64,000 bases of DNA. It comes from Thelonectria olida. Lineage: Eukaryota; Ascomycota; Sordariomycetes; Hypocreales; Nectriaceae. The stretch covers positions 62,001 to 126,000 of the forward strand of contig JAGPYM010000057.1 in the NCBI GenBank assembly GCA_020736575.1, written 5' to 3'. Numbering within the stretch: position 1 is the stretch's first letter; every line of letters begins with the position of its first letter. The notes beneath the pieces are model-generated. The model was not told where the DNA came from, did not search any database, and saw only the letters and a program-made list of their open reading frames with translations. Both the position numbers and the translations under genes were made by a program. Shown here piece after piece: positions 8,090 to 60,334 of this stretch.

Positions 8090-10094
8090 ATGGGCCTGCA
8101 CACTAAGCTTGCCGAGGGCATCGATGAGGTCGACATCATCATTGCTGGAGGTTAGTTGCTCATCTTATTCCGAACAGGAGCGAATAACCGGGCCAAACAC
8201 TAACTTATCACGCTCAATAGGTGGTGCCGCCGCGTGTGTCGTAGCAGGACGTCTTGCAGAAGCCGACCCTTCATTGTCGATCCTGCTCATCGAAGGAGGC
8301 CCTGATAATCGTGGCGTCCAGAACATCGAGAATCCTGTCTTCTTCTTAGACCACCTGCTGCCCACTAGCAACACAACTCTCTTCTACAAGAGTAACAAAG
8401 CAGAGCAGCTTGCGGGCCGCGAGTCTATCGTTGCCTGCGGTGGAACTCTTGGAGGTGGCTCCTCGATTAATTTTATGATGTACACGCGTGGCCAGCGTTC
8501 AGATTTTGATTCTTGGACCACGCCCGGGTGGTCTGCCGACGAGCTTGTTCCGTTCTTGAAAAATGTACAGTGCTTCATTCTTCTCATGGGACTACGGACT
8601 TGTATTAACCGACTACAAGATCGAGACGTTCCATGGACGAACCAACCCTGAAGTTCACGGCAGCGACGGACCTGTCCACATTAGCAGCGGCACATTTCGC
8701 TGTACGAACTCGGAAAGTGACTTCATCCAGGCTGCGGAACAGGTCGGTTGGCCCGAACTCGATGACCTGCAGGCCCTGGATGCCAATAATGGTTTTCAGC
8801 GTTGGCACCGCTCTGTTTCGCCCGAGGGCAGGCGACAAGACACCGCGACGGCATATCTTCACGCCAAGCTCAACGGAGATAAGTACCCTAATCTTCATGT
8901 CCTCGTCGAGTCAAAGGTCGTTCGTGTACTCCTTGATGGGAAGCGGGCTGTCGGTGTCGAGTACACCCCCAACCCTGCCTTTCAAGTCGAGACTGGTCCC
9001 ACCCAACACCCAAAGTTGGCTGTTAAGGCTCGCAAGCTTGTGGTTGTTTCTTGCGGCGCTTTGGGTACACCGCTTGTGATGGAGAGGTCAGGTCTCGGTG
9101 ATCCCAAGATTCTCGAGAAGGCGGGTGTCCCTGTCCAGGTTGATCTTCCGGGAGTCGGTCACAGCTATGAAGACCATCAACTCGTGCTCTACCCATACAA
9201 GACCAACCTTCAGCCCCATGAGACCATTGACAGGGTCCTTAGGAACCCGCATAAGCGTCAGGAGTTGATTGACAGCAAGGATCCAGTCTTGGGCTGGAAT
9301 TCTATTGACGTTTCGTCCAAGCTCCGTCCTACAGATTCTGATGTTGCTGCTCTTGGACCTGAATTCCAGCATGCGTGGGACAGAGATTTTAAGCACAGTC
9401 CTAACCGGCCCATTATGCTAATGGGACTTGTGTCATGGTAAGTAACGAGACGTATGAGGTCATACAGAACAGACAACTAATGATATACAGTTTCTTGGGA
9501 GACCCTTCATCGGTCCCGGAGGGTCAATATGTTACTGTTGGCAACTACACTGCCTACCCCTACTCGCGTGGTCATATCCATATTACAGGTTCTGGACTTG
9601 ACGATCCGCTGGACTTCGATGTGGGATTCCTTAATGATGAAAATGATATCGACCTCAAGAAGCAAGTTTGGGCCTATAAGAAGTCGCGCGAGATTATGCG
9701 ACGTACCGCACTATATCGTGGTGAGCTTGCCATTGGCCATCCAAACTGGCCTGTTGGCTCAAAGGCTGTTTCTGTCGACCTTGAGGCGCCCCTCAGCAAG
9801 GTCGAGGGTGTCAAAGTCGAGGATTTGCAATATTCGACTGAAGACGACAAGGCTATCGAGCAGTGGATTCGCGAAAATGTGCAAACGACCTGGCACTCAA
9901 TTGCCACGTGTAAGATGGCTCCTTTGGACGAGAATGGCGTTGTTGACGAACGATTGAATGTCTGGGGAACTACAGGTCTGAAGCTGGCCGACTTGAGTAT
10001 CGCGCCTAAGAATGTTGGAGGAAATACAAACAACACGGCTATGCTCATTGGCGAGAAGGCTGCTAGTATTATTATCAAGGATCTCGATCTATAG
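8090..10094 (+). CDS. GMC oxidoreductase, alcohol oxidase-like
   Basis: Model: join(8090..8150,8221..8564,8620..9437,9491..10094), 608 aa, all introns GT-AG and in phase. ATG at 8090 follows CACAACC. The N-terminus carries the FAD dinucleotide-binding signature (IIIAGGGAAACVVAGRL, split by intron 1, then LLIEGG). The GMC block CGGTLGGGSSINFM follows, and the C-terminal active site contains TWHSIATCKM (catalytic His) and NVGGNTNNTAM (second catalytic residue Asn, as in methanol/alcohol oxidases). The family oxidises alcohols with FAD and O2, making H2O2. The protein is somewhat shorter than peroxisomal methanol oxidases (about 660 aa) and its C-terminus LDL is not a clear PTS1 signal, so location is open. 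No signal peptide is seen. The frame is intact throughout. Confidence 0.9.
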
Positions 10095-10416
10095 TTAGAT
10101 ATTTGGAAATTATCACAAGTCTTGGCGTAGCTTAGACATTCTCGGTATCTACCAAATCATCACTACTCTTCAACGGCTCCGCGACTGGGTCGAAAAGACT
10201 TGTTGGCCTGGGCTCCGCAAAGTTATGCGATGGGCTGTGGAAGCTACCCAGACACACGGGTGATGCACCGAAATGGCCGTTGACTTCGGAGCCTCGCCCC
10301 CTGCACAGGTGGAAGGTATAATCGTTCTGGCTGAGAGAGGGGCGAGATCCAAGATCACTGGGCAGGATCGCATCAGTTTATATGTAGGCACCTTCAACTC
10401 CAGCTCCCCTTTAACA

Positions 10417-12099
10417 TCATAGGTAATTCTTAAGGATCGTGAGCTCGTCGCCAATCACGCCGCCCTCGCCATGAATGAACTCCCATGTGAGTTTCTTGGC
10501 GCTATTAATAGTAAGCTTACTGAAGCCAAAATGAACTTGATCAAGGAGGACGGTGAAGTCGAGCAGGATATGATCACCCAGGGTACTATGGCTCTCAATA
10601 TTTCCTGCAGCGCCATTGATGATATGAGTCATAGACACGCCCGGGTTTGTGATATATGTGTTGTTGTTCATGAATGCCGAGTGATCAATCGTGCCGTTGG
10701 TCTTGAGTGGCAACAATCTCTCGTACCAATGGATGTGACTTGCTCAAGATCAGTATTGGCTCCTCGGTATTGACTTGCGGCCATAGACGAAATCGACTTA
10801 CCCGGCTAGATATACATCAACACCATTCTTCAACATCAAGCCTTCAAAGGCCTCTCGGAGATAGTTTTGGTAAGATGAAACCTGTGAACTATACATAGGG
10901 CGGTGGCCCATGACAATAACCCATGGTGTTTTGCTTCGGTCGACGTTGGCGAGATCCCTTGCAAGCCATTGGTATTGCTCATACGCTTTGGTATCACTGT
11001 AGTTTCCGTTCACCGCGCCAAAGGGACCGCTATCAGTGACATATGTCTCGGAAGGAGTTGGGTGAGACTCGTCTCCTGATAGGTCCCGAGCGAAGGGCCA
11101 TTCGGGACTGTGCGCATAGTCGGTCTCGTGTTAATAGAGACGAAGTGAGCCAGGCCGTAATCGAAAGAGTACCAGAAGTTTCCTACACCACCAGACTCTT
11201 CTCCTGCCATGTGGAAGCGATTTTGATACGCAGTGAAGTTTCTGGCGCTTGATCAGTTCTCTTGTTCAGAATTCCTTGTTGGAGACTAGTCACCTCTGGG
11301 AAGGGGGCAGCTGTAGTAAGTGAGGCCAGACTTCTCAGCGGTGCCATTGACAACATCGTCGTTCAAATATGCGGTCAGAACGTTTTTTGGACCATCAAAT
11401 TCAGCACATGTGGCCTCGTGGTTTCCGGGCAGGACCATATACGGGATCTTGGTCGTGATGATGCCGATCCATTGCTGCCAGAGGTCCCAATTTGATTCGT
11501 ACAGAGTGCTCATGTCTCCACCTTGAGGACCACCTTGGTTGGGGATTTCTCCAGGCGGTAGGGGTTTCTTATACTCATCGGGGATGGGAGCACTGCCAGG
11601 AAGTTCAGTAGATGTGCCATTATAGCACACGGGCCAGCTATCCTCGCAAGGCAAAATGCCGGAATACCAATCATCAGCATAGCTGAGGTCGCCTCCATGC
11701 CAAGCAAAGGCTGCACCCTCTTTGACAACCTTGGTCAGCTGCTCAAAGGTTCCCGCCGCGTTGGTATATCCCATATCATTGAGAATAGCAACAGAGAACT
11801 CTGCTTTGTCTCCAGGTGCACGAGCGGTTTTGAAGCTGAGAACCTCGGATGCGGTAGTGCCATTGGCCGCTGGAGATGACATTGACGTTGTTTGTGGGTT
11901 TGTGAGATGCCGGCTTCACAGCAGGTGGTTCAACCAAGCGAGGGAATCCTTTGCCGTTTCCATTGAGGGTCTGATCAACCCAGTCCCCGATTGGAACTTT
12001 GGGTCCCGTATATTGGTAGACCTCATCGACCGTCGGGGCGCCATCTGTTTGAGCAGCCAGGAGCGCTGCGAGAAGCGTACATGTAACAATGGACTTCAT
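10417..12099 (-). pseudogene. purple acid phosphatase, broken by deletion and frameshifts
   Basis: Starts with a signal peptide (MKSIVTCTLLAALLAAQ). Metallophosphatase motifs survive in order: NDMGYT, WHGGDLSYADDW, LPGNHE, MGHRPMYSS and, after a 63-nt intron (10739-10801), GHIHWYERL. The family is a secreted di-metal phosphatase that scavenges phosphate. Three lesions are readable. Near 11880 the frame jumps from NNVNVIS straight to PAANGTT, so the usual N-terminal fibronectin-like domain is largely missing. Near 11305 a C run is one base short, which puts exon and intron phases out of register (with one more C the exon would end CAGAG before GTGACT). Near 11129 one base is missing between VSINT and ETDYAHSPEW. 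No single open frame can be spliced. Either a pseudogene or, less likely, several sequence errors. Confidence 0.85.
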
Positions 12100-12239
12100 C
12101 TTGGCTTCGGGTGTTGGGTGAGTGAGTCCTTGGCTCTAACAAAGAAGGGAAGACAGGAAATGAGGCCTGTAGGAACAGTTCGACTTGCTCTAGAGAGTTG
12201 CAACGATGACCTCGAAATCCACTGACGATCCAAGGAGGG

Positions 12240-42775: not shown

Positions 42776-45700
42776 TCACGAATCCGTGCTGCCTAGCGGT
42801 TTCGTCAAGAGCAGAAATCCCTCTATCGACGTGTATGGCGCCGGATCCAGCCGTAGCTTACCATCTATGTTTGGAGTATAAATCAGCACATCAATCATGA
42901 CACGAGGTACATATCCCGTGTAGAACGGAAAAGTGTGCAAGAAGGGGACCGAAAAACACAGCTTGGATCTCAAAATAGAGCCAAAAAAAAGAAAAAGAAG
43001 TCCCTTACCGTCCTCGCCCACATCCAACGCATTATACCTCCTCGCCTTCTCTCCGTCTTCCCCGTCGACAGGATACGGCTGCAGCCACGACCACACAGCC
43101 TTACTTCCGGCGGCCCGGATCGGTAGCCGCAGGGCTGCCGTGTCCGGCTGCGTGTGGATGTTCTTCTGCGTTTCCACCCATGTGTCTGCTTCAAGTGGAT
43201 GCGCTTCGTCATACGTTGATCGGACGTCACGAGACACCAGAATAGGTCCAAGGTGGAAGAAAGCGCCTAATCGAGGAAGCTTTTTAGCGATTCCCAGGGA
43301 AAAGAAAGAGAATGTTGTATGTCGAAGCGAATTCAAGAGATAGAAAAACACCTACTCATCTTTTGGAGAGCACGTTGAACAGCCCAGGCTGGCATACGAA
43401 GAGATTTTATCGGGAGGATCGGGCTGTATATGTGGGTTGAACTGTATGGGTCGATGAGCATGGTCTTGACTAGGTATTTCGTAGCATGAGAGGCTCCAAA
43501 ACTTCCGTTGTTCAGCGGGCTGACGGGGTCTACATAATAAGGGCTTATGCTCGGGAAGTTTTCAGGTAATATAGGAGCTCGCGGATCACCGGACGGGGTG
43601 GCTCCCGACGCCGGGAAGTACGTGTAGAAGGTGTCCCATGTTGTGGCGCCGGATGTGTCATTTTCAGTATCAAAGTAGCCTACCATTCCATCGAACGGCC
43701 TCTCTTTGTCACCAATTTTTATTGGAAATTTATAGGAGAATAGAATGTCAGCAGCGGAAGGTGTTGTTGGGACACGACTAGGTGGCCGTGCGGATTGAGA
43801 CTCCAGCGGTGGGAGGGCCAATTCGAGGCTGACCCCGACGTTCACAAGGGCCAGCGGCTTTCCGACAATAGATGTGGAATAGGCGGCGTAGTCGGCTGGA
43901 GCATATGGCATGGTCTCCACTGCGTCGACAACCACCTCATACAAGGCCTGTAGATACGCAGGGCCGGTGACCGGTTCGGTCATTTTCCCGATGAGCTCCA
44001 CTAGCTGAGGGGATACTGGAAAGGAGTTGTTCTTGGGAGGATCAAAAGGTAACCATTTGGGTCTTGCAATGCTTCCCATTGGACCCTAATCACCCACATC
44101 CATACATTCAGCGGGAGAAACGAGACAGCATGGTCAGGATACTTACCCCAAGGGACAGCTCAATGTAGAAGGTGCCATCGGAAGTAAAGAATTGCAGGCC
44201 ATAGTCTGCGTAGTTTATGATGATCCTACCAATTGTCGTCAGATCCTCGAACTTCATGACAATGACAACCGGAATAGACGTAACTCACCATCCCCATGCC
44301 GGCTGGTCCCAATCTTCGGCTGCCTTCCATCCGGAAAATGCCTCGTCACTCCCCGTCGGAGAAAGGAAGTCGAGATTTATTCTCGTAGCCTGGTTTATTG
44401 CCGGGGTGAGCTGCACAAAGGGACATAGCGGATATCCGCTTGGGAAGTGCGGGTCCGCCTCCGTCAGAGGCGCAACCGTGTTCAGGTGATTTGTGCCTTC
44501 GAGAAGTCCAGGACAGACCTGGTCGCCAAGACAAGGGTACATTGTTTTGGGTAACTGGGTAGGCTTGAAGAGTGGAGGGTCTGGGTCGATGCCGCTGATG
44601 ACCTGGCCGAATTTGTCGACGATATTCATCTTGGTGAAGTACAACTGCCCGTGTGTGACGCCCTTGAATGGCTGGTTAGCGGCCTGGGAGAAGTCCACCA
44701 GATTTCCATATGGAGTCTGAGCGGTCTCTCCCGCTATCCTCCGCATATCCGCTGGTCTCATTCCGATGGGGGTCACAGCTGTCACTCCCGGTCGCAAGGG
44801 GATTCCATTCGCTTCACCGGGGACGCGCAAGTTGGGCTGAACGTGTGAGCCCTCAAAGAGCGTCAGTAGATTGCTAGTCAAGCCGCTAATGTCTGAAGAC
44901 GCAAACTTGAGTTTGCCGACATTATCCAGAAGCTCTTGCTTTTGCTCTGGAGTGAGCGCGACTCCCGGGGTATCGATTATCTGTTCAACCAGTGCTTTCA
45001 AGTTGACTGAAGGCTGAGGGAGAAGAATGATCCGGCCAGCCACAACACGCTGATCATCGAGATTGGAAGGATCATCCGCAAGTGGCTCCTTGACTCCGTA
45101 GCGCACCTGGGCGTGATTGTTACCGACAGGAGAGTTCAGGATCTGGAGAGACCATTTCTCAAAGGCTATATCAAAGTAGATTGCCTCCCATTCGATGAAC
45201 AACGGGACCCAAGGCTGGCCGGACCATTTCTTAAAGCCGATTTCAGCGCTGTGATCGCCGGCAGAGAGGGCTTGATGAAGTAGAAAGGAAATTCCCTCGG
45301 CGATTCTGACATCGCCAATCTTCTCGGCATTGACGCTTGGTTGGTATCTTCTGTCGGTGATAAACCGGGCAGGAATGGTTTCGAGATATCTTGGATCCCA
45401 TCCCGAGTCCATTCCAGCGATGCAGAGAGTCGGGTCTGACTTCTGGAAAAATGTAGGCTGCGGTATACGTCGAGCCTGGACGAGTGGCGGTAACGTTGTG
45501 CCTTCGTCTTTCCGGACAATCACCTCGATCTGATCCTGGAGACCGGTGGTGGGATTTGAAATCAGGTCTACCAGCTCAATCAGCTGCTTTCGAAGGACTT
45601 CTACTTGCGTCTGGTAAGACTGTTGAAGGGCGGCGCTTGCATTATTTGGCTCCGATACAAACTTCCACCAAACCGCAAACAAGGCCCAGCGGGTGTGCCG

Positions 45701-47242
45701 CAGCTTTCGGGTGGCAGCGTCAAGATGGAACTGCAAACCATTTACGGCGATGAGATAGTCCACTTCGGTTTTCCCGTTGGCGTCCTTGTCCACCGCGTTC
45801 GGCTGAGCAGGGGCGCCGCCGGGAGGAGCTTTGCCATCATACTGCCAGGAATTTCCTGCCGCCGTGGGTTGGAAGTTGTGTGCGTAGATTAGATCCGCCG
45901 CCTTGACACGGGAGTCGTAGCTGTCTTCGCTGGCATACAGCAGCTCGCTGAGGTTGAGAATCTCCCTGGCCACCGAATCTGCACCGTCTTTATGGGCTTC
46001 CAGAAAGCTGAGAATCGCATCCAGCCCCGTGGTCCCGACAGAAACAGGCTCCATGTTCACGCTCGAAGTAAACAAATCTGCAAGTTTCTCTGCGGGAATG
46101 TCGGGCTTCTTGGATCGGTCGAACCGAACGTCGTATATCGTGCCGAAGCTCAACAGCCTGGTGGCATCCCGGGAGGCCAAGTAATCGGCAGGCGTCTTTT
46201 CGTCAAGCTCGCAGAACAGAGCGAGCAGACGGTCAACCATGGTGGCCTTGTCGGGATTCACGCCGAGCGGATCTGACTCCTGGGCCGAGTGCCAGCCAAT
46301 GACGATGTACTGGCAATTTGCCTGTCTCAGGAGAAACTTTTTGCCCTCCGCCGTCTCCGCCTCGAGGTTATCAATCATGGAGAAGACGTTGGCGTTGTGC
46401 ATGGTGTTGTCGGCGAAGGAGAAGTTGGAGGAATTCATCGCAGTCAGCGGGACGCGCGGGACAGCGGTGCCTCTCTCGGTCCACGTTTCGACGGGAATCT
46501 TCTCGCCAATGTACACGGCGGCCTGCTTATTGAGGACATTTGGAGATCTTTCGTCGCCGGACGTGTAATTCACGTACGGGGACACATCCGTCTCTAGGTC
46601 GACATCCGGGCCCAGCTCGTCGACATCCCACAGCCTGTCGCTTTCCACCACCCAGCCCGTAACCTGCTTGTCTTTGGGCACGACGGGCGTGGAAGACTTG
46701 ATGGAGCGGGCCACGAGCCAGCGGTTGGGCACTGGACGGAACGTCGGGTTGGGAGAGGCATTTTGGTTCGTCCTGGGCGGTTTGGTGCCATCTGCTGCCG
46801 CCGTTGCAGCGCGGTATAGACGCGGGAGGCTCCAGTGCAGATGCACGCCCAGGCGGTTGATGCGGAGCGGCGGCGTGACAACCTTCTCTGGCTGCGAGGG
46901 ATCCAGGACCGAGAAGTCGGTCGTTTCGGTGGCAGAAATCCGTGCGTTCAGCGAAGCCGGCTGGGCGCGGTGAACATCCACGGGGGGCAGAATATCAGCC
47001 CGTATTTCAGCGTTGTCCGGACGGAGGCCGTGATAGTCGGGCTGTGTGACGGGGGCAATGCGAACTGGACCCGTGTCACACACCTTGTCGTTCAAGATGA
47101 AGGCGTCGAGATCCATGGGAATGTAGACGGCCGGCAAGAAGCTTTCGCGCACGAGTGGCTCCATTTTGGATTTGATATTGTTTGTTCTGGTGGTGCTGCA
47201 GTTGCTGGGGACTGGGCGCAGGGCGATTTCCAGCAGCGCCAA
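42776..47242 (-). CDS. P1: giant uncharacterised protein of the large-protein cluster
   Basis: Model: complement(join(42776..42864,43009..43266,43356..44085,44147..44225,44289..47242)), 1369 aa; all four introns are GT-AG and in phase. The first in-frame ATG giving a natural N-terminus is at 47164 (MEPLVRESFLPAVYIP), the open frame reaching 47242. Landmarks: ILPPVDVHRAQPASLNARI, RLGVHLHWSLPRLYR, VPNRWLVAR, GWVVESDRLWDVDELGPDVD; near the end INYADYGLQFFTSDGTFYIE, then RPKWLPFDPP and LDPAPYTSIEGFLLL. No signal peptide, membrane helix or enzyme motif. I recall closely similar wording (LHW-LP, PNRWLV, NYADxGLQFFxPDGTFY) from large uncharacterised bacterial proteins, so a bacterial origin is suspected. 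Head-to-head with P2. Its introns all lie in the last third, as if gained or added after transfer. Function unknown. Confidence 0.85.
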
Positions 47243-47858
47243 CGCCGAAATGCAAACTGTAGCCCGCGACGTGAGAGGCGGAGATGGAGAGAGAGTTGTG
47301 GGCAGCCCAGTGGAAAGCAGCGTAACTAATGGTAGTTAGGCATAATTATCATTAACATTTCTTTGGCGGATGCAGCTGTAACTGGCTACTGCGCGGCTGA
47401 AGGCAACTGTTCTGGATGGTGCATCGGGGTTCAGCTGCCAGCCACGGCCGCCCCCCAAGCACCAGGGGGGGGCAGAGCTCCCACCAATCAATCTGTCGAT
47501 TGATTGATTGTTGTCAGCTCTGTCGGGAGGGCCGCATCACTAGCTGAACGCCGTTGATGCTGCCTCCCAGCCACGCCGGCCATCGGGCCACGTAAGACGG
47601 GAGAATAGGGCTGCTAATGCGACGCGGAAGTCTGACGCTGTTGATTTCATCCGCTGAGGGGCTTTGCTCTGGTACTGGACCCACCCGCCAACATTCAGCC
47701 CTGCCGGCCGCTGCTTGGTTTGTTTGCACGGTTCTTTGATCATCTGCCGACGACCTGACTGACTGCCTTTCTTTCACCTACGGTCGTCTTTCGGGTCTCT
47801 GGGGCTTCTGTGGGCGATGCTGCTTTGACGGTTCTTCTTGCTAATCCAAATCATAGCC
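47243..47858. promoter_or_regulatory. bidirectional promoter of P1 and P2
   Basis: 616 bases between two divergent starts. A perfect 9-bp inverted repeat, CAATCAATC-TGTC-GATTGATTG (47485-47506), and a nearby G8 run (47464-47472) stand out. A single shared regulator for both genes is plausible from the geometry; no known binding motif is claimed. Confidence 0.4.
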
Positions 47859-50800
47859 ATGGCGAGATCTTTGGCGGATCACATAGTGAAAAGAGCCATC
47901 GCTACCGCCATCGGAGAGCCGCCAGCAGATGGCAGCGACTTGCCCTTGGGCCACCAGAAACTCTTTACCTTTTGCAGGCCTTCGCTAGATCCAGGCGTAT
48001 ATGGCATCGAGGCAATCCAGGAGATCCACGCTCCAAACGGCGAGACACTCTCGGTCTTCAACTATGACAGCACCGCGAGCTCCCCCCAGCCTGTGTCGTT
48101 GCAAACCTTCACCGTCATCGCTCCGCAGTTCCAGCTCGATCCAAAGGATATCAATTCCTATTACCCCCCGGACGGTCACGTTGACGAAGGCCGAATCCTG
48201 CCTCACATCGTTTTCAATGATCCCCATGTGCCCTGGCAGAGGCCGGCCTTCTCGGCCAACTATGCAAGACGGCTTCCCTATCAAGTGCCTTGGCTGGCCC
48301 TGATTACATTCGACCCCGAAGAACTTGCCGTCACCGCCGAGGAAGCCCTTGGATTGGGAATCCCTGATTTTGATCTCAAACAGCCGCCCAGCTCGGGAGC
48401 GTATCCCATGAGCGTGGGTCAATTCCTCACCAAAGTCAAATCCAGAGCCAACTACGAGGTCATCCAGCGCCAGCAAAACGGCAAATCCATCTGGAAAAAC
48501 CTGAAGAGCTCGCCTGATCCGACCTCGGTCATATTCCCTCCCATATCCGTCATCGAACCGCTGTTCCCAAAGGACTCTGTACTGGGCGTGTTGCTGTCTC
48601 ATGTGCGGGAGGCCAATGTGACTGGACTTCCAGATGCCACGCATGGGAAGAGCGGTCTCTATTCCATCATCATCAGCCAGCGGAGCGGTCCGATGGATCT
48701 CACCGCCCCAAAGAGCCAGGTTGTGCACCTTGTCAGCGTCGAGCACATGGCTAGCACGAATTTTGACGATATTCGATCCTATGGCCGCATAGGGATGGTG
48801 TCGCTATTCAGCTGGCGATATCTCTGCGTGCCTCCAAACCCCACCAGCGTCATCAGCATAATGAAAAGGCTCGGCGATCAGAAGCAGATGCTGCGGCCAC
48901 CGCAGCAGCTGATCTCGTCCATTCGCAGCCAGCCTGGAAACCAAACTGACACAGACACAGACCCTCAGAACGGCCCAAGGCTCCTCGCAGAACGCCTGTC
49001 GCTGGGCTATTCGATCTCACGATGGCGCGTCGCAACAGGAGAGGAAACAATTTCGTTCATACGCGGCCCTCTGGTTCCGACTTTGACGCCCCGGGAGCCT
49101 TCGAACGGCGCAGACTGGCCCGACTCGTCGAACTCGGGAAAGGACTATCAGATTCTGGACCGAGACCTGGGTGTCATGGACAACACATACTCGTCTGCCT
49201 TTCAAATCGGCAAACTCATGGCGGTGTCGGATCCAGTGTTCGCCTCCGCTCTGTTTCGCTTCCGTTCGCTGGTGCAGAATCGGGCGGCCAGCAGCGCGAG
49301 AATGACGGTCAATGGCGTTGTCCCAGCGAGCACCGTCATCAACGACGCTTTCAAGGCCGTGGCTGAGATTCGCAGAACCACCAAGGGAAACTGTGTGCCC
49401 GCCCGCATTGTCCTTCCGAGCTCCAGCGCGGTGGCTCCGCCATTGCGAGATCCCAGCATTCTCCCCACGTTCCAACGTGCGATCAAGTCTGCGGTGGCCC
49501 TGCAGACTTCGGCAGGGGAGGCCATCTACAGCGACTACAATCTGGGGAAGTCGAACAACTCGGACTGGGAGATCATCCACAAATGGATCAGTGACAAGCT
49601 GTTCCTCGCAGGCATCCCAGCGCACTACTTGATCACCGACCCCAGCCATCTGTCCGGCCTGCCTGTCGATTACGACGAGGGACAGCCCATAGCCTTGACC
49701 TCCGAAGCCCTCCGCTTCTTCTACATCGATGACGCCTGGATGGATTGCTTCATCGATGGCGCCCTCTCCGTTGCGAACCATCTCGATCCCGGAGACGATT
49801 TTGTGCGGAGGGAGATCAAGGAGGTCTACAATGTCTACTTGAGGAACACGATCGATCCTGCGCCTGTGAAGCCTCCCATCCCACGGTACGGATTCATCAT
49901 TCGCTCTCTAGTCATCAAGGCTATTCCTGACCTCCGGGTGACGGTCCGATGCCGCAAGGCTACGGGGCCCGGAGTCTACGACATTGACGATTCAAGAGCT
50001 CCGTTGATTCGTCTCACCAAGATTGATGACTTTACTCTCCTCGCGCTGCTTGATTGTTTCCCCGAGCACATACACGACATCACCCTGTCCCAGCCGCCAC
50101 ATCAACAGCGATTCACCGCACCCACCTCGCCGACGGAAGGCCTGGCCTTTCCGGTGAAGCAGCTGTTTACCAGCGGCGCACCGGATGGACCATGGCCGAT
50201 TTGGCCAGACAGCCGGTTTCCAAACAAAGCCCAGTGGTTTACGCCCGCCACCCGCATGCTCAATCTATTGCCCATGGCGCAAGACTTGAACAGCGGCATG
50301 AGATTCTCAGAGCCCACTCGGGCCTTTGCCGCCAACATCGATCCGGCCATCTTCAGCGTTATCCTGAACGACGACAACTTCCAGCTCACCATTCTCCCTC
50401 CTCTACTCAGCGCACCAGAACCTTACCCTCCGCCGGACCGCCAGCTATGGGCGAACCCGCCTCCTGCCACACCAATCTCTCCTGCCGCCGCAGCCCAACG
50501 CCAATCGCACATTGCGTCCCCCGACGACCTCAACTCCGTCACTCCCTCTGTCCATCCCCTCTCCATGCTGCAGCCAATCCTCTCCCACCCACCCTCTCTC
50601 AACCCATCCGCCACCCCCATCACCATCGCCTCGTCCGCCGCTCTCCCCACCGCCGCCATCTCCAGCGAATACATCATGTCCATCCACCCAGACTACCGTG
50701 GTCCCGCCCCGCGGCCCTTCACGCCCGTCTTCCCACCTCAAAAGATCTACTCGGCGCGCGACTACCTCCCGACCACACCCATCCACCGCCCAGACCTCAT

Positions 50801-51287
50801 CTTCTCCATCCACAAGAACCCGTCCGCTCCCGCCCGCGACGCGCTGCTCGTCTCTCTGGAAGTCATCATCCCCACCAACACCACCGCCGGCAGCGACGAG
50901 CCACTCCTCCAGACGCCATACGTCGGCGCCGGCGCCAGGATGATCCACAACCACCGCCTCATCACGCTGATGAGCGCGCCCGCAGGCGGCCAGGATCTCC
51001 GCGTCAAGATCGCGCCCCGCAGCGCCGCGCTGGGCCAGATGGTCGGCCTGTCCAATCTGGCGCTAGAGGACGCGAGCTTCAAGCTGGCGGCTTGCGCCGT
51101 GGCGCCCACCCGTACGCCCAGGGCGGTGCAGGTGCATGGTCTCGGGCATGTCATGAGGGGCGTGTGCAAGGTGCTGCTAGTGGAGAGGTGGGCTTTTGCG
51201 AGCGGGGCCGAGGAGGAGGCGGTCGGAGAGGTGGATGTGTTGAAGAGGGAGGGTGGCGATGTCGATGGGTTGGGGAACGAGGTGTGA
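47859..51287 (+). CDS. P2: giant uncharacterised protein of the large-protein cluster
   Basis: Single exon, 1142 aa, from the first ATG at 47859 in context AGCCATGG. No introns, unusual for this neighbourhood. Landmarks: RILPHIVFNDPHVPWQRP and VPWLALITFDPEEL near residues 125-170, SVLGVLLSHVREAN, LSLGYSISRWRVATGEETISFIRGPLVP near 400, ISDKLFLAGIPAHYLITDPSHL and SLVIKAIPDLRVTV. The last third is rich in Pro and Ser with little complexity (about 50400-50950), where the opposite strand and other frames are also open. No signal peptide, membrane helix or catalytic motif seen. I associate the LPHxVxxDPHxPW / PWLAL signature with large hypothetical bacterial proteins but can name no Pfam family. 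Convergent with P3 (275 bases between stops). Confidence 0.85.
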   Translation: MARSLADHIVKRAIATAIGEPPADGSDLPLGHQKLFTFCRPSLDPGVYGIEAIQEIHAPNGETLSVFNYDSTASSPQPVSLQTFTVIAPQFQLDPKDINSYYPPDGHVDEGRILPHIVFNDPHVPWQRPAFSANYARRLPYQVPWLALITFDPEELAVTAEEALGLGIPDFDLKQPPSSGAYPMSVGQFLTKVKSRANYEVIQRQQNGKSIWKNLKSSPDPTSVIFPPISVIEPLFPKDSVLGVLLSHVREANVTGLPDATHGKSGLYSIIISQRSGPMDLTAPKSQVVHLVSVEHMASTNFDDIRSYGRIGMVSLFSWRYLCVPPNPTSVISIMKRLGDQKQMLRPPQQLISSIRSQPGNQTDTDTDPQNGPRLLAERLSLGYSISRWRVATGEETISFIRGPLVPTLTPREPSNGADWPDSSNSGKDYQILDRDLGVMDNTYSSAFQIGKLMAVSDPVFASALFRFRSLVQNRAASSARMTVNGVVPASTVINDAFKAVAEIRRTTKGNCVPARIVLPSSSAVAPPLRDPSILPTFQRAIKSAVALQTSAGEAIYSDYNLGKSNNSDWEIIHKWISDKLFLAGIPAHYLITDPSHLSGLPVDYDEGQPIALTSEALRFFYIDDAWMDCFIDGALSVANHLDPGDDFVRREIKEVYNVYLRNTIDPAPVKPPIPRYGFIIRSLVIKAIPDLRVTVRCRKATGPGVYDIDDSRAPLIRLTKIDDFTLLALLDCFPEHIHDITLSQPPHQQRFTAPTSPTEGLAFPVKQLFTSGAPDGPWPIWPDSRFPNKAQWFTPATRMLNLLPMAQDLNSGMRFSEPTRAFAANIDPAIFSVILNDDNFQLTILPPLLSAPEPYPPPDRQLWANPPPATPISPAAAAQRQSHIASPDDLNSVTPSVHPLSMLQPILSHPPSLNPSATPITIASSAALPTAAISSEYIMSIHPDYRGPAPRPFTPVFPPQKIYSARDYLPTTPIHRPDLIFSIHKNPSAPARDALLVSLEVIIPTNTTAGSDEPLLQTPYVGAGARMIHNHRLITLMSAPAGGQDLRVKIAPRSAALGQMVGLSNLALEDASFKLAACAVAPTRTPRAVQVHGLGHVMRGVCKVLLVERWAFASGAEEEAVGEVDVLKREGGDVDGLGNEV

Positions 51288-51563
51288 ATTTTTTTTGGGC
51301 GTCTTTTTTTCTTTTTATTTTGGACTGTTTGGGAGAAAGGCTTTGGGAAGTAGGTTGGTCGGTCAAGATGGAGAGGAAGGCACGTTATGGGAAAGACTCC
51401 ATAGATCTATTCCTCTCTCTCTCTCCCAATGGAAACGGACGGAACTTGGCACTTGAAGTTTTAATCTTTAATTTTCCATTCAAGGATAAAACTGTGTTGA
51501 TCCTCTCGAATCAACGTGATATTGCGGTGTCATCATTCCATTTTCTTAAGCAAACAAACTATT

Positions 51564-53882
51564 TTACATTGCCGAGCCCTTCAAAAAGCAGCACCAGGCC
51601 ACGGCAAAGGGTGTGAATCCTGTTCCAGAGACCAAACGTATGGCGATACTGTATTTGTGCCCAGGGAGAGCCGGGAAATCAATCACCTCGTAATTGTTGT
51701 CGAAACTGGTTGACGACGCGATCTCCTTGCCGGCTTCGTCCAACAAAATGAGGTCAAGGTTGAGCGACAACACGGAAGATTCTGCATTGGCCAGGTTGCG
51801 CGGCATGCCTCTGAATTCAAAGGTACTGATCCACGCAAGGGTTGCACGCAGATTGAGTTCCTTGAGGATTTTATCGTCGGGGGGCGTGCTGGGGTCGGCC
51901 GAGAGAGCCGGGACCTGGATGAACCAGCGCTTCTTGGACAATTTCCTGTCGCCCTCGAAGTCCGCGGGCTCCAGCCCAGAGCGGTCCCAGCCGAGGGCGC
52001 TAGGAGGCGAGGGTGCCCGCTTGAGATTCTGCGTGATTCTCACCGCGGCCAGGGCGTCGAGGGCGCCCGCGCCGTCCTTGCCGTCCACGCGCTGCGGCTC
52101 GGGCAATTTCTGGGTGCTGAGGTCCGCCCACCACCGGTTGCCAAAGGCGTTGCGGCCCGCGCCGGCGAGCATAATGGCACGGCAGGCTTCGGGCCGGATG
52201 ATCAGGTCTTTGTTGGTGCTCTGCAGGATGGCGACGGTGCCGGCCACGGCAGGTGCGGCAAAGCTGGTTCCCGTGTGCGAGCTGCCCATATAGTAAACTT
52301 TGATGCCCGGCGCAACTATGTCCGGCAGCTCCCGGTCGTGGTGCGGGCTGGATGGGTTCCGGTAGTTGACCCATTGCGGAATGTTTTTGCTTGGGTCTTT
52401 GGTAGACAGGTAGGTAATGTGCGCTCCGACGGTCATGATGTTGAAGGCCTTGTGGACCACGTAGTCGGTGCTGGGTGGAAGGTTGTCGTACGTTTCGGGA
52501 GGGTCGGCATCCTCGTTGATCCTTGGTTGGCCCCCGGCTGTGACGAAGGTTGGGAATGGGTGAGTCGCAGAGAGAAAGTCCATCTGGACGTCTCGTGCCG
52601 ACATGGTCGACGTTGTGGCCTCGGGACGTTCGTGCGAGCTGACACAGACGACGGAGCATTGATTTGTTATTACCCATTCCAAGGACTCGGTTTTGCCCCG
52701 GTCGGTTTTCACTCGGTTGGCTAGATATAGCGTACATCCAGGTGCGTAGCCGTTGACAACATTGGTGCCTGGCGGCTGTTTGTTCTTGATGATACCGCAG
52801 ACGGCTCTTGCGTGCTCATTTTCGGACCTGGTAACCCCCGAAGTGTCGGTTTCCAAGCGACCGGCCAGCTCCAGATGGGTCACGTCCGTCGGGCCTCTTT
52901 CCCAGAGAACGGCCACCTTGATGTTTTCGCCGTTATGGCCTTGTTCCAGCGCCTTGGTGCCCCTGGCTAGGCCGATGGATTTGGGAATAACCTTGTCCCC
53001 GTCGTCATCGCCATCGCGGTCCACGCCGGCCGTCTGCAAACATGGGTATATCTTCCCTACATGCTCTGATTTCGCCAATACCCTAATCTGCGAGACCGTG
53101 AGACGGGTCGAGAAGGACGGTAGCAGAGAGTGATCCGCCACGTCGGCGCCGAAGCCGGTTACCAGACCGATCAGCTCCTCCTTGGGAGTTCGATACGCAT
53201 CCCTGACAGAGCGGCCGTCGCCCTCCTTTCTCACCAGGAGAGGGTCGAACTGCAACAGCGGCCAGACGGTGACTTCAAACGCGTCTGATTCCTCGGCAGC
53301 CTCGAGCTCATGCCACAGCGTCTCATGGATGTGGCCGAACTTGGCGAGGCGTCGCTCGTTGACCGCCCGCAGGATGGCCTCGCCATCCACGTCGTTCCCT
53401 TGGCCATCATAGGAAAGGCAGCAGGGGACCAAAGTGTCGTGATGGACCGCTTTGACGCGCGAAAGGTACTGCGTGCCGGAGGGTGCCTTCTCTCCTGGCT
53501 TGAGCCGTTGCGTCTCCAGCTCGCCGACCGCGAGGTGGATGGCATGCTCCACGCGCAGATGCTTGGGGATGGAGCTGGGGAATCTGCGAATGCATACCAG
53601 CCGGGATGCAGGATGCGAGGTGACTGCGTTTCCCGCGCCATCGACGAGTGCGTCGACGATGATCCTGTACAGGTCCGAGGCCAATGCATGCGTGGACAGT
53701 TCCGCCGCGGTGGCATTGGCATCTGCATCGACTCGGATGGGCACGGCGATGCGGTGGCTCCCAGCCTCAACGTGGATCGCTTTCCTGGTCGCTACGGAAT
53801 CGACTCTGCGCGGTAAGGTGATACGGATTGGGGCTCCGGGGGCGAGCACCTCTTTGGAGAAGAACGAGAACTCGACGGCCAT
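51564..53882 (-). CDS. P3: subtilisin-fold (S8) protein with altered catalytic site
   Basis: Single exon, 772 aa, ATG at 53882 (GGAGCCATGG context; the frame is open further upstream only through a low-complexity GCA/CCA repeat with no ATG). Residues 1-290 have no identified domain. The S8 domain runs about 318-590: IKVAVLWERGPTDVTHLELAGR, where D-x-G of the catalytic Asp is E-R-G (Glu328); ENEHARAVCGII with His357; FVTAGGQPRI, where the oxyanion-hole Asn is Gly451; and SSHTGTSFAAPAVAG with Ser540. So His and Ser are kept while Asp and Asn are not, and activity is doubtful or unusual. The C-terminal 150 residues look like a beta-rich accessory domain. No signal peptide, hence probably intracellular, unlike most fungal subtilases. 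Head-to-head with P4. Confidence 0.85.
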   Translation of the reverse strand: MAVEFSFFSKEVLAPGAPIRITLPRRVDSVATRKAIHVEAGSHRIAVPIRVDADANATAAELSTHALASDLYRIIVDALVDGAGNAVTSHPASRLVCIRRFPSSIPKHLRVEHAIHLAVGELETQRLKPGEKAPSGTQYLSRVKAVHHDTLVPCCLSYDGQGNDVDGEAILRAVNERRLAKFGHIHETLWHELEAAEESDAFEVTVWPLLQFDPLLVRKEGDGRSVRDAYRTPKEELIGLVTGFGADVADHSLLPSFSTRLTVSQIRVLAKSEHVGKIYPCLQTAGVDRDGDDDGDKVIPKSIGLARGTKALEQGHNGENIKVAVLWERGPTDVTHLELAGRLETDTSGVTRSENEHARAVCGIIKNKQPPGTNVVNGYAPGCTLYLANRVKTDRGKTESLEWVITNQCSVVCVSSHERPEATTSTMSARDVQMDFLSATHPFPTFVTAGGQPRINEDADPPETYDNLPPSTDYVVHKAFNIMTVGAHITYLSTKDPSKNIPQWVNYRNPSSPHHDRELPDIVAPGIKVYYMGSSHTGTSFAAPAVAGTVAILQSTNKDLIIRPEACRAIMLAGAGRNAFGNRWWADLSTQKLPEPQRVDGKDGAGALDALAAVRITQNLKRAPSPPSALGWDRSGLEPADFEGDRKLSKKRWFIQVPALSADPSTPPDDKILKELNLRATLAWISTFEFRGMPRNLANAESSVLSLNLDLILLDEAGKEIASSTSFDNNYEVIDFPALPGHKYSIAIRLVSGTGFTPFAVAWCCFLKGSAM

Positions 53883-54482
53883 GGCTCCTGTCTGTGGTCG
53901 TCGTGGCGGTGGTGGCCGTAGGAGGGAGAGGCTCCGTACCTTACACCCGCTGCTGCTGCTGCTATGTGGTGGTGGTGGTGGTGCTGCTGCTGGTGGCTCT
54001 CTGCCCACCAGACCAGCAAATGCTATCTAACCTCCCAATGCTTTGGAATGCCCATGCTGTCTTCTTCCGCCCCCGTATCGGCTTCCACACCAGGCTGTTG
54101 GGGAAATGGATGCCTCAGCTGACCGAGGGGTTCCGCAGCAGCAGGGCCAATCACGGCAAGTGATGCGAGGTGTTGCTTGCCCGGAACTCTCAGCCGCACC
54201 GCTTAGGAGGCCCGCATTATAGGGTTTCCGGGTGAATCCGCTGATAACGGGGGCAGGAACAATCGCGATTGGGTACTCTGCAGCTTTCGGCCAGGCTGAG
54301 AATGGCGCAACGTCACACAGTGACTTGGGGGGAGACAGATGGGGGGGAATCATGTGCGTTTTCATCGGCCGGTTCAACAACAACCACATCCACGGCGAGT
54401 GCATCTCCGCTCATGGACTGTTTGATACACGGGCCTGGCCTCGCCCGTTCAAACGGCCGCATATCCGTCTGGAAGAAAAACC
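53883..54482. promoter_or_regulatory. bidirectional promoter of P3 and P4 with trinucleotide repeats
   Basis: 600 bases between divergent starts. A GCT/GTG trinucleotide cluster, (CTG)n followed by (GTG)n and (CTG)n, occupies about 53948-53998, close to the P3 start and probably in its 5' leader. No other motif was recognised. Confidence 0.35.
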
Positions 54483-57400
54483 ATGGCCTTGGTGCCCCCG
54501 CTGGATGGCTCGACCGGAGCGCTCAGCACCTATTGGACCCAGCGGATCCTCAATGAGCCCCTGCAGGTCGATGTGCAACCGCCTCCGGCACCCCAGGCGA
54601 TTGCAGTAAAGAGCCGCTTTCTGTGGGATCTCGTCTTCACCAGCCAAAGCAATACGGTCAAGTTTGGTCCATCATCGCCGGGCACCGCCGCCGTGTCACC
54701 CACGTCGCAGGATGCCGTCCTAGGGCTGGATCCAGCGTCGTTCCCGCTGTCGCTGACGTTTGCATCTGTCGCCTCCAAATTCATCGGCACCACCGCTGCA
54801 TCGACCGAACTGGCTGCGTTTGTCACTGCCGTCGACAGCCCTCCAGGCAGCCTGATTCTCTCCCTGGACACCGCGGTGGCCAGCAGAAGCGCCCTGTGGG
54901 CCATCGCCTCCGATGAGTATCGCACAATCGTCACGCTCCCCTTCGAAGCACCTGGCGCGGCCACCGACGCCATCCAAAGATTCACCAACGACTCCTTTGG
55001 CACCACAGTCCAGCTGGTGAACCCAAAGGTGCGGCTCTCCTTCACCCTAGCTACCATCTACGTTCCCGATCCTGGCACGCCAACCGTCCTTACCGCCTCC
55101 TCGTCCTGGCAGCTGGACGTCTCGCTTGCCGCTGACACTTTTGAAGTCGTCCTCCGCTTGTCTCCCTACGGCGCCAATCTCCTCATCTCCAATCCCCAGG
55201 GCATTCCTACCCCGCCTGGCTCGATTTTGGACCGCCTGAGCAATGCCATCACAGGCTCCAACCCCTCGTCTAGGGCTCCGAAAGCTGGCGATCTTCCCTC
55301 TCCAGGCCAGGGCAGCGGTGCCTTCAATGCCTTTTTCTCTGGCATCAGTCTGTGGTATATCTGCCTCCAGCGCTCCAGCGAAAAAACAACCCTTCCGGAC
55401 GGCACCGTTGGAGAGACGCCTGGGCCTGTGTACTGGCGAGTCAATTTGATAGCCGATTGGACCACCAGGTCCGACGTCCTCCTCGGACTCGAGTTCGACT
55501 CCAATCTAGACTCGCTGTACGGCAAACTTCTCTTCAGCAATGATGCTCCCCCCTTGTATGCCAATCGTCGATTCGACTATGACTGGCAACTGGACGTTTC
55601 CACTGCCGTTCGAACTCCCCTGCCGCTGTATTTGGACATCTGGCAGCTCTTCAGCCCGAACGCGAAACCACCGCCCCAGATACCCTCCAAGATCATACAT
55701 GGCAGTGTAGGCTTCCGCAAAACCGCCGGAACCGACTCCGCCTTCAATTTGTCTGCAACCATTGTCTCGGAGGCTTCCTTTTCTCCTCCGCCAAAGAATG
55801 CCAGGTCCGCCCCCGATGGTTTTTCATGGGACGTGGTCTCCGTAGACGCCATGATCCAAAGCGGCGCTTCTGGCCCGCTGGTGACTCTTGGGCTTTTCAC
55901 CGAGTTTACTCTGACCCCACCCTCCGGGAGCAGCTTCTCTCCCGCTACTTTTGGCATCGACATCCAATGGAACTCGGCTGGATCCTGGGTTTTGCACGGC
56001 TCTGTTGGAGATTTGTCTTTGGGCATGCTGGCTGATTTCTTCGACGGCGGTGTTAGGGATGTCGTGGCTGCCCTGGTTGGACCTCTTGCCCTGGAACAGC
56101 TCGATGTGGTGTACACCTATGATGCCGACGGGGAAGCCTCGTCCTTCTTCATCCGCGGCGTCATCCTTCTTGGAACGCTGGAGCTGGATCTCTCCTACGA
56201 ATACGCATCCGGGCTGTTGGAAGCTGGTGTGGACTCTGCATCAACCATAGTTCGAAAGCAGAACGGAACTGAAGCATCCAATCCTCCTCCGCTGCTCGGG
56301 CCAGTCGTCGGAGGCGTCCGCCAATCCGTGTGGACATTCACCGCTACCCTCGGCGCCTCTTCTCCAAGCTCCACGATTGGCTCCATGCTGCAGTCTATAA
56401 CCGGAAACGCTGCCAATCTCCCGGATTTTGTGGCATCAATCCCAGTCGGCGAAGCTTCTGGCCCGCAATCCGCGGTGAAACTCGTTCTTCGCGGAACGGA
56501 CGCCTATACGGCTCTATCCATCGCAATAACCATCGGTGACTTCACCCTCACTTTTATATCTCTTAGCACCCCGAGCTCTACGCATGCTAAACGCATCCTC
56601 CGCGTACAGGTCGACCAGATCCCGCTGGTGAAAGACATCCCACTTATCAAAGAACTCCCACAGCCTTTCGACAAGCTCGTTTACTTATGGCTGGACGATG
56701 ACAGCGGGAAAGGCATGTTAACAACCGAGCTGGCCCATATCAATGACGAGCTCGACCTTCTCTCCATTCCGAGAGTTGTTGCCAAGGACACCAATAACGC
56801 CGACCCTATCTTGCCTGTCCTCCGACCTGGCCACCATTTCATGGTGTTGAACAAGGGCGGTGTAGTCCTTGATCATGTCTTTGGCGACAGTGCTGCCAAT
56901 TCTGGTAGCAACGATGCTCAAGCCACTGCCACAACTCCGAGCGAAGGCCCCACGAAAGGTGGGCTTCAAGTGCAGCTACCATTCCTCACCATATCCGGAA
57001 TAGCGCTGGATTTCAGAGGAGGCTCTATCGTGCTGGACTTTGACGCTGCAGTCAAGCTTGGTCCACTCTTCTTCACGTTGGTCGGTTTCTACATTGGAAT
57101 CCCTCTGTCAAGCATCAAACTAAACGATCTCTCTCACATCCATGTCGATTTTGGCCTACATGGCCTAGAAGTGGCCCTGGATCAGCCTCCAGTCACACTA
57201 GCAGGAGTGTTTATCCATGATGGGATCATAAATCTAGGCGGCATGCATCTGGACAGCTACCGAGGCGGCATCAGCCTGGGATTCCAGGCTTGGAAGTTCA
57301 TCGCCATCGGACAATACGGCAAGGACACCGACACCGACTTCAAGACAGTCTTTGTCTACGCCAACCTTGATGGGCCTCTCGTGACCCTAGCCTTTGCATC

Positions 57401-59640
57401 CATCACAGGAGTGCGAGTGGGCCTGGGCTTCAACAGCATGATACGATCTCCCGCGATCAAGGAACTTCCCGATTTCCCATTGCTGGACAACTCGGCAGCC
57501 TCTAGCTCGGGTCAAAGTCCCCTCGCTCTCCTAAACAAGTTCCTGGCTCCTTCGACGGGAATCCCGTGGGTGGTGCCCAAGGAGGATGCGTATTGGGTCG
57601 CTGCCGGCCTGACCTTGACGGCATTTGGCATCCTATCCGTCACAGCAGTCCTGGTGTTCGGCGTTCGGGACGGCGGCTTCGTGATATCCGTCTTCGCAAA
57701 CGGCATCGCGCGAATGCCCCCTACGGCGCCGCCCGAAGCAACCCTCTTCTACGTGGAAATCGGAATGCTTGCGGAAATCAACACCGTGGACGGCTACTTT
57801 ACCGTTCAAGCCGCCCTGGCGCCCTCGTCCCATGTCCTGGTTCCTTCATGCCGACTCACCGGTGGGTTTGCTCTTGTGAACTGGTTCAGTCCCAGTCCTC
57901 ACTCTGGAGACTTTGTATTCACAGTTGGAGGGGTATGTGTTTTTTCTTTCTCACACGCCTTGGTTCGCCTGAACAGTGTTACTGACTGGTGCAGTTTCAC
58001 CGTGCCTATTCTCCCCCACCCTGGTATCCCGTTCCGGATCGTTTAGGCATCTCCTTCACCCTTGGGAGCATGATTAACGTCACAGGGAACGTCTATTTCG
58101 CCATTACTCCAAAGTGCGTCATGGGAGGAGGCGGTCTGCATCTGGGTCTTGATGTCGGGCCCGTCAGTGCCTGGCTGGATGTCGCGCTGGATGTCTTCGT
58201 CCAGTTCAAGCCGTTCCATTACATGGCGGATCTCAAAGTCTCCGTCGGTTGTGCAATATCGATTGACGTATGGTTTGTGCATATCCGGGTGACCGCGAGT
58301 GTAGGAGCAAACCTTCACATTGAGGGCCCTGATCCTTTTGGTGGAGTAAGTAACCCCAGGCTCGATATACTCTTTGGACTTCATGATGAGCTGACCCCCC
58401 TGCGCAGACGGCCACCGTGGACTTCTATTTGTTCTCATTTACCATCAACTTCGGCGAGAGGCCGCCGCCGGCCCCGCCTATTTCGCTCGTCGAATTTTTC
58501 AACATGGTCAACGTACCTGGGCCGGCTCCAGCTCCTTCCACGTCACCAGACCCCGTCGATGCCATGCTGGGAAGAATACGGTTTGTTGTCTCCACGGGCC
58601 TGTATCCCAAGCTACTCCCACCCTCATCAGGGGGTCCTCCGAGCGGACCCTTCCCCAGCACCGGGGTCGGCACACCTTGGGATATCAAGGTTGGGGCGTT
58701 CAGCTTTGTAATCGGTGTTGACTTTGCACTTTCATCAGCGACAGTTACGAACTCGTCGTCCTCTGCGTCTCCAACCACGCCCATTTTAACGCCAGTCACA
58801 AACACCGACCCGGACCATTTCTACTCCAAACCCATGCACATCAACACCCCCTTCACATCCTCTCTCAGCATCACCGTCTACAATATCGACGATCCAGGCA
58901 ATCCCCTCATAAAGGACAACTTCACGGGCGAAATGGTCCTCAAAGACGTTCCCGCTGCCCTCTGGGGCCCGTACTCCACCGACGAAGACCCCACCGTATC
59001 GCGGAACCCTCAAAAGCTCAAAGATGGCAACAACCCAAGCATGAAGCTGTGCATGGGCGTGACGATATTCTCTCCACCATCCACCTTCGGCCCCTGCCCC
59101 GTTCAATCCTTCAACCCCACCATCGCATTCACCACCAAAATCAAATCCAGCACGGACTCCGACTTCTACCTCCCGGACATCGAGGGTCCGCAGGACACCT
59201 TCCTCGCCGGCAGTCCCATCAAACCGGACGACCCCCCCGCGGATCGCTGGTCTGACTTCAAAGACGAATGGAGCAAGGCGGCGGAGTCTGGGAAGACCGC
59301 GCTGGGGAACCCGGCTGTGGACGGATCTCAGCCGGATGGGATCCTCAAGCTAACTATTGTTTATTGCCGAGTGTATGATTGTTTCCCACATAGTGAATGT
59401 CACTTGCTTCTAAACTGTCTCCATTATCGCATACTGCAGAGGGCGGACACAGGGCTGCAGTTAAAGTCCTTTTGGCCCGAAGCGACATGGAACCCGACAC
59501 AGAGGATAACAACGGTCGGACGCCACTTAGCTATGCCGCCGAAGGGGGGCACAAGGCTGTCATCAGGATGCTTCTTAGCCGGAGCGCTGATATCAAGTCG
59601 AACTATAGCCTGGGCCAAACCTGCTTTACTGGGCCGCTAG
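54483..59640 (+). CDS. P4: DUF6603-domain giant protein with chimeric 3' end
   Basis: Model: join(54483..57932,57995..58345,58408..59640), 1677 aa; two in-phase GT-AG introns, both inside the DUF6603 region. The N-terminal 700 residues are beta-rich and Ser/Thr/Pro-rich without known motifs. The DUF6603 domain covers about 830-1350: LTISGIALDFRGGSIVLDF, GFYIGIPLSSIKLND, GLEVALDQPPVTLAG, GYRGG-like DSYRGGISLGFQAWKF, then VGGFHRAYSPPPWYP, YFAITPKCVMGGG, FVQFKPFHY, NLHIEGPDPFGG. DUF6603 occurs in bacteria and fungi and is of unknown function. From about 59360 the frame no longer looks native and runs out of frame through an ankyrin relic to a TAG at 59638-59640, so the original C-terminus may be lost. 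Head-to-head with P3. Confidence 0.82.
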
Positions 59641-59887
59641 GGAAGGGCACCTGGCAGTCGTGGAGCTACTACTTGAGAATGGCGCCAATGCCGAGACGAA
59701 AAGCACCTCTGGACTGACGCCGCTCAGCTTTGCTGAACGGCGTCGGCATAGGGCCGTTGCGAATCTGTTGAAGAAGTACTGCGCTGATGTTGAGTCGAGG
59801 GTCAACTCCAGCGATACACTAGGTAGCCCAAGCAACGTCTGGCAGCCACAACCAGCGACATTACAACGTCGTTTCAGTACTAATTAG
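59415..59887 (+). pseudogene. ankyrin-repeat gene fragment
   Basis: Three ankyrin repeats are readable: HTAEGGHRAAVKVLLAR, GRTPLSYAAEGGHKAVIRML and, one frame over after about 59620, AAREGHLAVVELLLENGANAE then GLTPLSFAERRRHRAVANLL, ending at a stop at 59885-59887. A one-base frameshift separates repeats 2 and 3, and there is no start. It overlaps the out-of-frame tail of P4. Ankyrin arrays of this kind are common at the C-terminus of fungal NLRs. Confidence 0.8.
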
Positions 59888-60334
59888 TAATAACTCTTGT
59901 GTGTTTCCATCTTTGAGGATATATCAATTTACACCTTTCATAATTTCCTGGTATCTTCTGCGTATTCACATAGTTGCCTCATTTTGTATTTGGGTTGAAG
60001 GTGCAGACGCCTGCTACGACATTGTGGCCGTGGATCGGTCCGTGGAAGATGCCGAGTTTCGGAAAAGCTGGCCTGGTCTGAAACCCTGCAGAAATCTTGA
60101 TTTAGCCTCGTGACGGCAGGAAGTCACGCCACCATGAAGTAGGGGAATGTTGGGGCTTTGTTGCATCGGCTCTAGCTGTCACCAAGCTTCGACCACGGCA
60201 TCTTCTGATTGGCATTGAATGATGAAGCCACGGCAGATGGAGAACCTCAACATGGTTTGACATGTGCGCTGCCCTAAGGAAATGATGTGAACGATTGCGT
60301 AGACTGCAGTCTTCCCGTTGTTTCCGCTGGGACT
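59888..60334. other. intergenic, no gene seen
   Basis: Ordinary-composition sequence between the ankyrin relic and the isomerase pseudogene; only short ORFs. Confidence 0.45.

Follow-up and report, generated by a model that had tools for sequence, protein, structure and literature searches.

Identification of a Module of Giant Proteins

The genome of the ascomycete Thelonectria olida (165 contigs, 52.5 Mb in total) contains, within the 64,000-nucleotide window analyzed here (contig JAGPYM010000057.1, positions 62,001 to 126,000), four adjacent genes for large proteins, named P1 to P4. Three of them, P1, P2 and P4, almost certainly form a module. In bacteria, its counterparts form an operon ordered P4, P2, P1. 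P4 is a clear member of DUF6603 (PF20248; 242.3 bits versus a Pfam cut-off of 27), a family for which we know of no function. In the window, no other Pfam family is found on P4, and P1 and P2 have none at E ≤ 1. The scans made of Pfam, NCBIfam, PHROG, PADLOC and PDB entries gave no match for P1 or P2, and no precomputed Pfam domain is present on their relatives among the matches listed. P1, P2 and P4 of the bacterial locus L013 have no PHROG match either.

The Bacterial Operon

By tblastn against 72,556 plasmid records, P2 matches eight records, three of which are one Streptomyces clavuligerus plasmid. P1 matches the same eight and P4 seven of them; the remaining record is a Paenibacillus sonchi plasmid (L010). 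An alignment built from six bacterial P2 proteins, scanned against one genome per species (84,980 species), yielded 60 loci. In 56 of these 60 loci, the three genes share a strand and follow the order P4, P2, P1. Two of the four exceptions are short contigs cut at an end (L060, L074), and the other two contain P2 alone inside the fetched DNA (L030, L034). Because the plasmid loci and the window supplied the locus profiles, their matches follow by construction; those of the 60 loci do not. The operon genes abut or overlap. In L035, P4 ends at 9982, P2 occupies 9989-12226 and P1 starts at 12226. The hosts belong to eight phyla (Actinomycetota, Bacillota, Bacteroidota, Pseudomonadota, Acidobacteriota, Myxococcota, Chlorobiota and SAR324), several of the rarer ones being represented solely by metagenome-assembled genomes.

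Since the 60 loci had been selected via P2, genomes were sampled by kinship instead; both samples include their own centre genome, and the first also includes a genome originally found through P2 (G007). In the family of G002 (Streptomyces, L035; 200 genomes), DUF6603 is present in 46 genomes (55 loci), P2 in 31 (38 loci) and P1 in 30 (38 loci). P2 and P4 lie within 15 kb of 37 of the 38 P1 loci, and 37 of the 38 P2 loci are accompanied by P1 and P4. Among the P1 loci the exception is a piece, located in G013, that adjoins P4 and not P2; among the P2 loci it is a 34-residue fragment. In the family of G003 (Paenibacillus, L049; 104 genomes), DUF6603 occurs in six genomes and P1 in the same six, a few kb apart. 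Both families show a patchy distribution. Homologues that never co-occur would have spoken against the original prediction; those of P1, P2 and P4 clearly do co-occur, in the P2-selected loci, in the kinship samples and on the fungal contigs described below.

Additional copies were observed in two genera. The second copy of a Hyalangium genome (L089, 2726-13555) is an exception in gene order, with P1, a gene of no known family, P4 and P2 on one strand. In Chitinophaga (L087, 2405-12031), P4 is part of a 3208-amino-acid (aa) open reading frame (ORF), the first 2048 aa of which have no Pfam match, and a Lipase_3 gene lies just upstream. A third copy in the same Chitinophaga genome (L088, 8333-20000) is very divergent, with P2 barely recognizable (E 4e-6) and P1 unrecognized, which suggests a larger superfamily.

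The Module in Fungi

In the protein database, P2 has 58 relatives besides itself, fungal wherever they are named. They include the lichen fungi Squamulea, Pyrenodesmia, Caloplaca and Trapelia, and also Cadophora, Exophiala, Baudoinia and Penicillium. P1 has 157 relatives; among the best 120 of these 157, the strong end is fungal, and named bacteria (Bradyrhizobium, Pseudomonas and others) occur at the weak end. Both searches scored just the candidates with the most words in common.

Linkage of P1 and P2 is also found in fungi. Twenty-one P2 proteins are located on contigs longer than 100 kb (20 without that of the window), and for 10 of these 20 the contig is exactly equal in bases to the contig of a listed P1 relative. 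Just three unequal P2/P1 contig pairs are within 1% of each other. Six of the ten matched contigs are shorter than 350 kb. The other four measure 1.1-2.7 Mb, so that a common contig does not make the genes neighbors there. The P1 and P2 locus tags are two apart in Squamulea (Q9209_004484/004486) and in Exophiala (LTS15_005213/005215).

Within T. olida itself, the DUF6603 profile matches eight places, two of which are parts of P4; the Pfam entry spans one domain only. A DUF6603 ORF (510065-512776, minus strand) and a P2-like ORF (517319-520765, plus strand) are separated by ~4.5 kb on contig C111. Contig C84 (565838-570536; L019, L081) has adjoining pieces of P4 and P1 arranged as in bacteria; of the four P1 stretches matched there, two contain stops. 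Contig C80 contains a piece of P2, and C164 and C77 contain DUF6603 alone or in pieces. On C164 (7414-11990, L017), the lone DUF6603 gene is next to an ORF that matches CHAT weakly (E 0.0053, below cut-off).

In an unrooted P2 tree of 82 rows, made by a quick method, one branch separates 22 fungal from 60 bacterial rows (SH-aLRT 100). The window row groups with Squamulea and Pyrenodesmia, and the C111 copy with Penicillium and Poronia. The tree has long branches and carries program warnings about false joins and composition bias. One ancient transfer into fungi would be the simplest reading, its direction being deduced from phyletic breadth only. The bacterial origin proposed earlier is plausible by this breadth; the unrooted tree itself gives neither the direction nor the time of a transfer. 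The co-directional order P4-P2-P1 is not kept in the window, where the three genes lie within a few kb in divergent pairs. This rearrangement makes the fungal cluster a relative of the bacterial operon, and not the operon itself.

Gene Models in the Window

All four genes are genuine and intact. Their introns, present in P1 and P4, and their nearest relatives show them to be fungal. All four frames are intact at the expected place in the ORF and splice models, and the predicted arrangement in two divergent pairs (P1<- ->P2, P3<- ->P4) is borne out. The introns make bacterial contamination unlikely. The block is GC-rich, as had been noticed, with 57.0% versus 49.9% in the rest of the window (first kilobase excluded). 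That first kilobase (1-1000) is an extreme AT-rich stretch with a GC content of merely 6.2%.

P1 is encoded on the minus strand (47164..42776) by five exons and counts 1343 aa from the first ATG; a length of 1369 aa corresponds to reading from a TTG start at 47242. Exon 1 (44289..47164; 958 aa), which belongs to the giant core protein by its ORF, splice model, homologues and bacterial counterparts, is followed by exon 2 (44147..44225), exon 3 (43356..44085), exon 4 (43009..43266) and exon 5 (42776..42864, including the stop codon). The four introns are all GT-AG and 61-144 bp each. P2 (47859-51287, plus strand, 1142 aa) is intronless and is separated from P1 by a divergent intergenic region (47165..47858). 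Its residues ~1-850 align with bacterial P2, and the remaining extension is absent from the bacterial rows.

P3 (53882..51564, minus strand, 772 aa) has no introns. Beyond the second divergent intergenic region (53883..54482), P4 (54483-59640, plus strand, 1677 aa) consists of three exons and two introns. Exon 1 (54483..57932) encodes a long N-terminal part and the first half of DUF6603, exon 2 (57995..58345) the second part of this domain, and exon 3 (58408..59640) the C-terminal part. The splice sites of P1 and P4 were set by eye. In profiles built from bacterial and window sequences, with the window's own rows included, the P1 exons match colinearly over positions 2-1190 of 1193; for the P4 exons the match covers positions 10-715 of 739. 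Directly behind P4, ankyrin-repeat remnants with a frame break were read by eye (59400-59890, plus strand). The last exon runs into this ankyrin-like DNA, and the true end of P4 is therefore unsure past ~59350.

Variable Genes around the Core

The gene preceding P4 in the bacterial operons varies. This slot was scanned in 28 ORFs from 28 of 68 loci, chosen where an ORF was assignable; many short-P4 Streptomyces loci have no assignable slot gene because long ORFs overlap in GC-rich DNA, and these were left out. A Pfam match above cut-off is found for 13 of the 28: EEP nuclease/phosphatase (L049, L055), metallo-beta-lactamase (MBL; L067, L071, L073), DUF4135 of LanM enzymes (L068, L075), hemopexin/propeller (L027, L028, L036), Lipase_3 (L087), M16 (L052) and M1 (L066). 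Eleven more are named through sub-threshold hits, motifs or kinship only, as MBL (L011, L058, L069), EEP-like (L057, L062), LCAT-like (L064), M91-like with HELTH (L042) or members of a TAGT-like family (L041, L046, L047, and L054 via BLAST). Five of the 28 ORFs do not abut P4 (L025, L028, L052, L066, L077) and may lie outside the operon. The slot seems to be swapped, since the Paenibacillus P2-tree rows L055 and L059 have an EEP enzyme and their sister L071 (support 93) an MBL.

A fourth gene is located behind P1 in 49 of 66 loci, on the same strand every time. As judged by eye, its product combines immunoglobulin-like parts with a repetitive stretch and a shared C-terminal part. Two to four copies are present in seven loci, and one copy has an F5/8 type C domain. 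No library scanned names the whole protein, and "fiber-like" is used here as a descriptive label. By a crude rule, signal-like N-termini are found in none of 56 P2 proteins, none of 61 downstream genes and two of 63 P4 proteins.

In the window, the position adjoining P4 is occupied by P3, which has an S8 fold (Pfam Peptidase_S8, 59.3 bits versus a cut-off of 21.8, in an ORF with a longer start). By tblastn, none of the 66 bacterial loci and four additional ones matches P3, which is single-copy within its genome. The protein database contains P3 itself and one relative (P0061), 34-38% identical. The contig of P0061 and that of a P1 homologue (P0063) are both 130435 bases long. Judged by this equal length, P3 accompanies the module in at least one more case. 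One relative, on such a contig, and no bacterial match make P3 a rare partner and not part of the core; the linked cluster with bacterial counterparts that had been predicted for four genes holds for P1, P2 and P4. The fungal P3 may fill the position of the slot enzyme.

Possible Function of the Module

The reading we prefer, to which we give slightly less than an even chance, is that P1, P2 and P4 constitute an assembly that acts on membranes and either carries an interchangeable enzyme or positions it. P4, P2 and P1 would be the invariant core of this assembly, apparently without signal peptides. The predicted core of P4 is a long antiparallel amphipathic beta meander. This sheet might contact lipid, either as an inserting pore or as a lipid-clasping belt, with a body of P1 and P2 built around it. 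The swappable enzyme encoded beside P4 would be the cargo or the output, and in bacteria the fiber-like product might bind the target; delivery would be to a rival or host cell. The fungus would have retained the core, with the S8-like P3 as the candidate for the enzyme slot. A multi-protein assembly, suggested already in the original prediction, is compatible with the invariant gene order and is still a proposal.

A more specific form, in which the module represents a new class of effector-delivery particle, is rather doubtful. Three giant proteins, built in the cytosol around a membrane-inserting beta structure, would deliver an exchangeable enzyme cargo in at least eight bacterial phyla, and many ascomycetes would have kept the particle for their own use. 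Such particles would be unrelated to phage tails and Tc toxins. Tc (ABC) toxin complexes also consist of three giant proteins with a variable enzyme; they differ in that P1, P2 and P4 of the window have no Pfam match to Tc, SpvB or Rhs families. Extracellular contractile injection systems resemble the module in having a swappable enzyme, a fiber-like protein, few signal-like N-termini and environmental bacteria as hosts, a likeness in the way of working only. No sheath or tube family is present among the best 25 of 68 families from a scan of 53 of 66 neighbor ORFs at 12 chosen loci. On a Paenibacillus plasmid (L012, 1-4295), annotated DUF4280, baseplate V and GH-E nuclease genes were observed ~8-12 kb upstream of the module, baseplate V at ~9 kb.

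Several results weigh against a membrane-active carrier of enzymes. The P4 model, with a pLDDT of 69.6 and a pTM of 0.52, is weak as a whole and good only at ~222-610. Foldseek gave no match reaching E 0.001. At fold level, the model shares its long amphipathic meander with porins and apolipoprotein B. It differs from them in having no sequence match to PDB chains and a root-mean-square deviation of 9-12 Å, which in this model reflects a common strand meander and is no proof of a barrel; moreover, the hosts include fungi and bacteria without an outer membrane. A hydropathy stretch above 1.6 is found in 26 of 60 P4 rows, and none exceeds 2.0. None of the core proteins has a relative of solved structure or an activity that has been measured, and we know of no export route for them. 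By the same crude rule, signal-like N-termini occur in 11 of 59 P1 proteins, where they look like a hydrophobic first strand, and in two of the 28 slot proteins counted, which comprise P3 and 27 bacterial ORFs. DUF6603 occurs without P1 or P2 in 16 of the 46 DUF6603 genomes of the G002 family, so this family is wider than the module. Four of the 28 slot ORFs have no clear family (L014, L025, L077, L089), and neither the window nor the fungal loci inspected showed the fiber-like gene. A recurring immunity gene was not noticed either, in data that were not searched systematically for one. Finally, the catalytic Asp position of P3 reads VAVLWERG instead of the VAVLDTG of subtilisin, and P0061 likewise lacks the Asp. 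The His stretch is aligned and GTSFAAP is present, leaving an incomplete Asp-His-Ser triad; P3 may be inactive or use another residue. The replaced Asp weakens the "processing" role once assigned to this protein.

An intracellular conflict or immunity system, in which P1, P2 and P4 sense an invader and trigger the adjacent suicide or attack enzyme (MBL, nuclease or protease), is unlikely, with points on either side. The MBL of L071 resembles the MBL models of Lamassu, DRT, Avs1 and 6A-MBL (below NCBIfam cut-offs), and the PADLOC subtilase model matches P3 (E 1e-11). Annotated CHAT and CATRA genes are located ~5-9 kb from the module in L013, and the CHAT-like ORF beside the lone DUF6603 gene of T. 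olida would fit as well, as would the scarcity of signal-like N-termini. However, the giant core proteins match no PADLOC model: at E ≤ 0.01, no family, including the system-specific core proteins of Avs1, Lamassu and DRT, is found for P1 and P2 (L044) or P4 (L070). There is also no common sensor, the nucleoside triphosphatases among the 25 neighbor families listed being ABC_tran (four ORFs), AAA_21 (two) and RsgA (two). The fiber-like gene with its tandem copies fits outward binding better.

It is quite improbable that the module forms a lipid carrier or lipid particle, with P4 as an apolipoprotein B-like belt or groove and with lipase- or acyltransferase-like partners. A role in lipid metabolism or transport is not evident for most nameable slot enzymes (nuclease-like, MBL, DUF4135, propeller), and the searches made revealed no lipid-protein relatives of P1 or P2. 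That four unrelated fungal orphan genes are adjacent by chance can practically be dismissed: P3 is nearly unique and DUF6603 is also found alone, but for P1, P2 and P4 this is already contradicted by the order kept in eight bacterial phyla and by the linkage in other fungi, among them Squamulea and Exophiala.

Significance

No name for the P4-P2-P1 module was found in the libraries used or in the literature found outside subscription papers and preprints. Two of its three core proteins belong to no family in the libraries used, and none of the system models used covers it. With ~2,700-4,200 residues in total, one gene order over eight bacterial phyla and linkage in fungi, it is apparently nameless and without an assigned function. 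The role of DUF6603 becomes directly testable through this module, which may add a machine common to bacteria and fungi to the known weapons or defenses between organisms.

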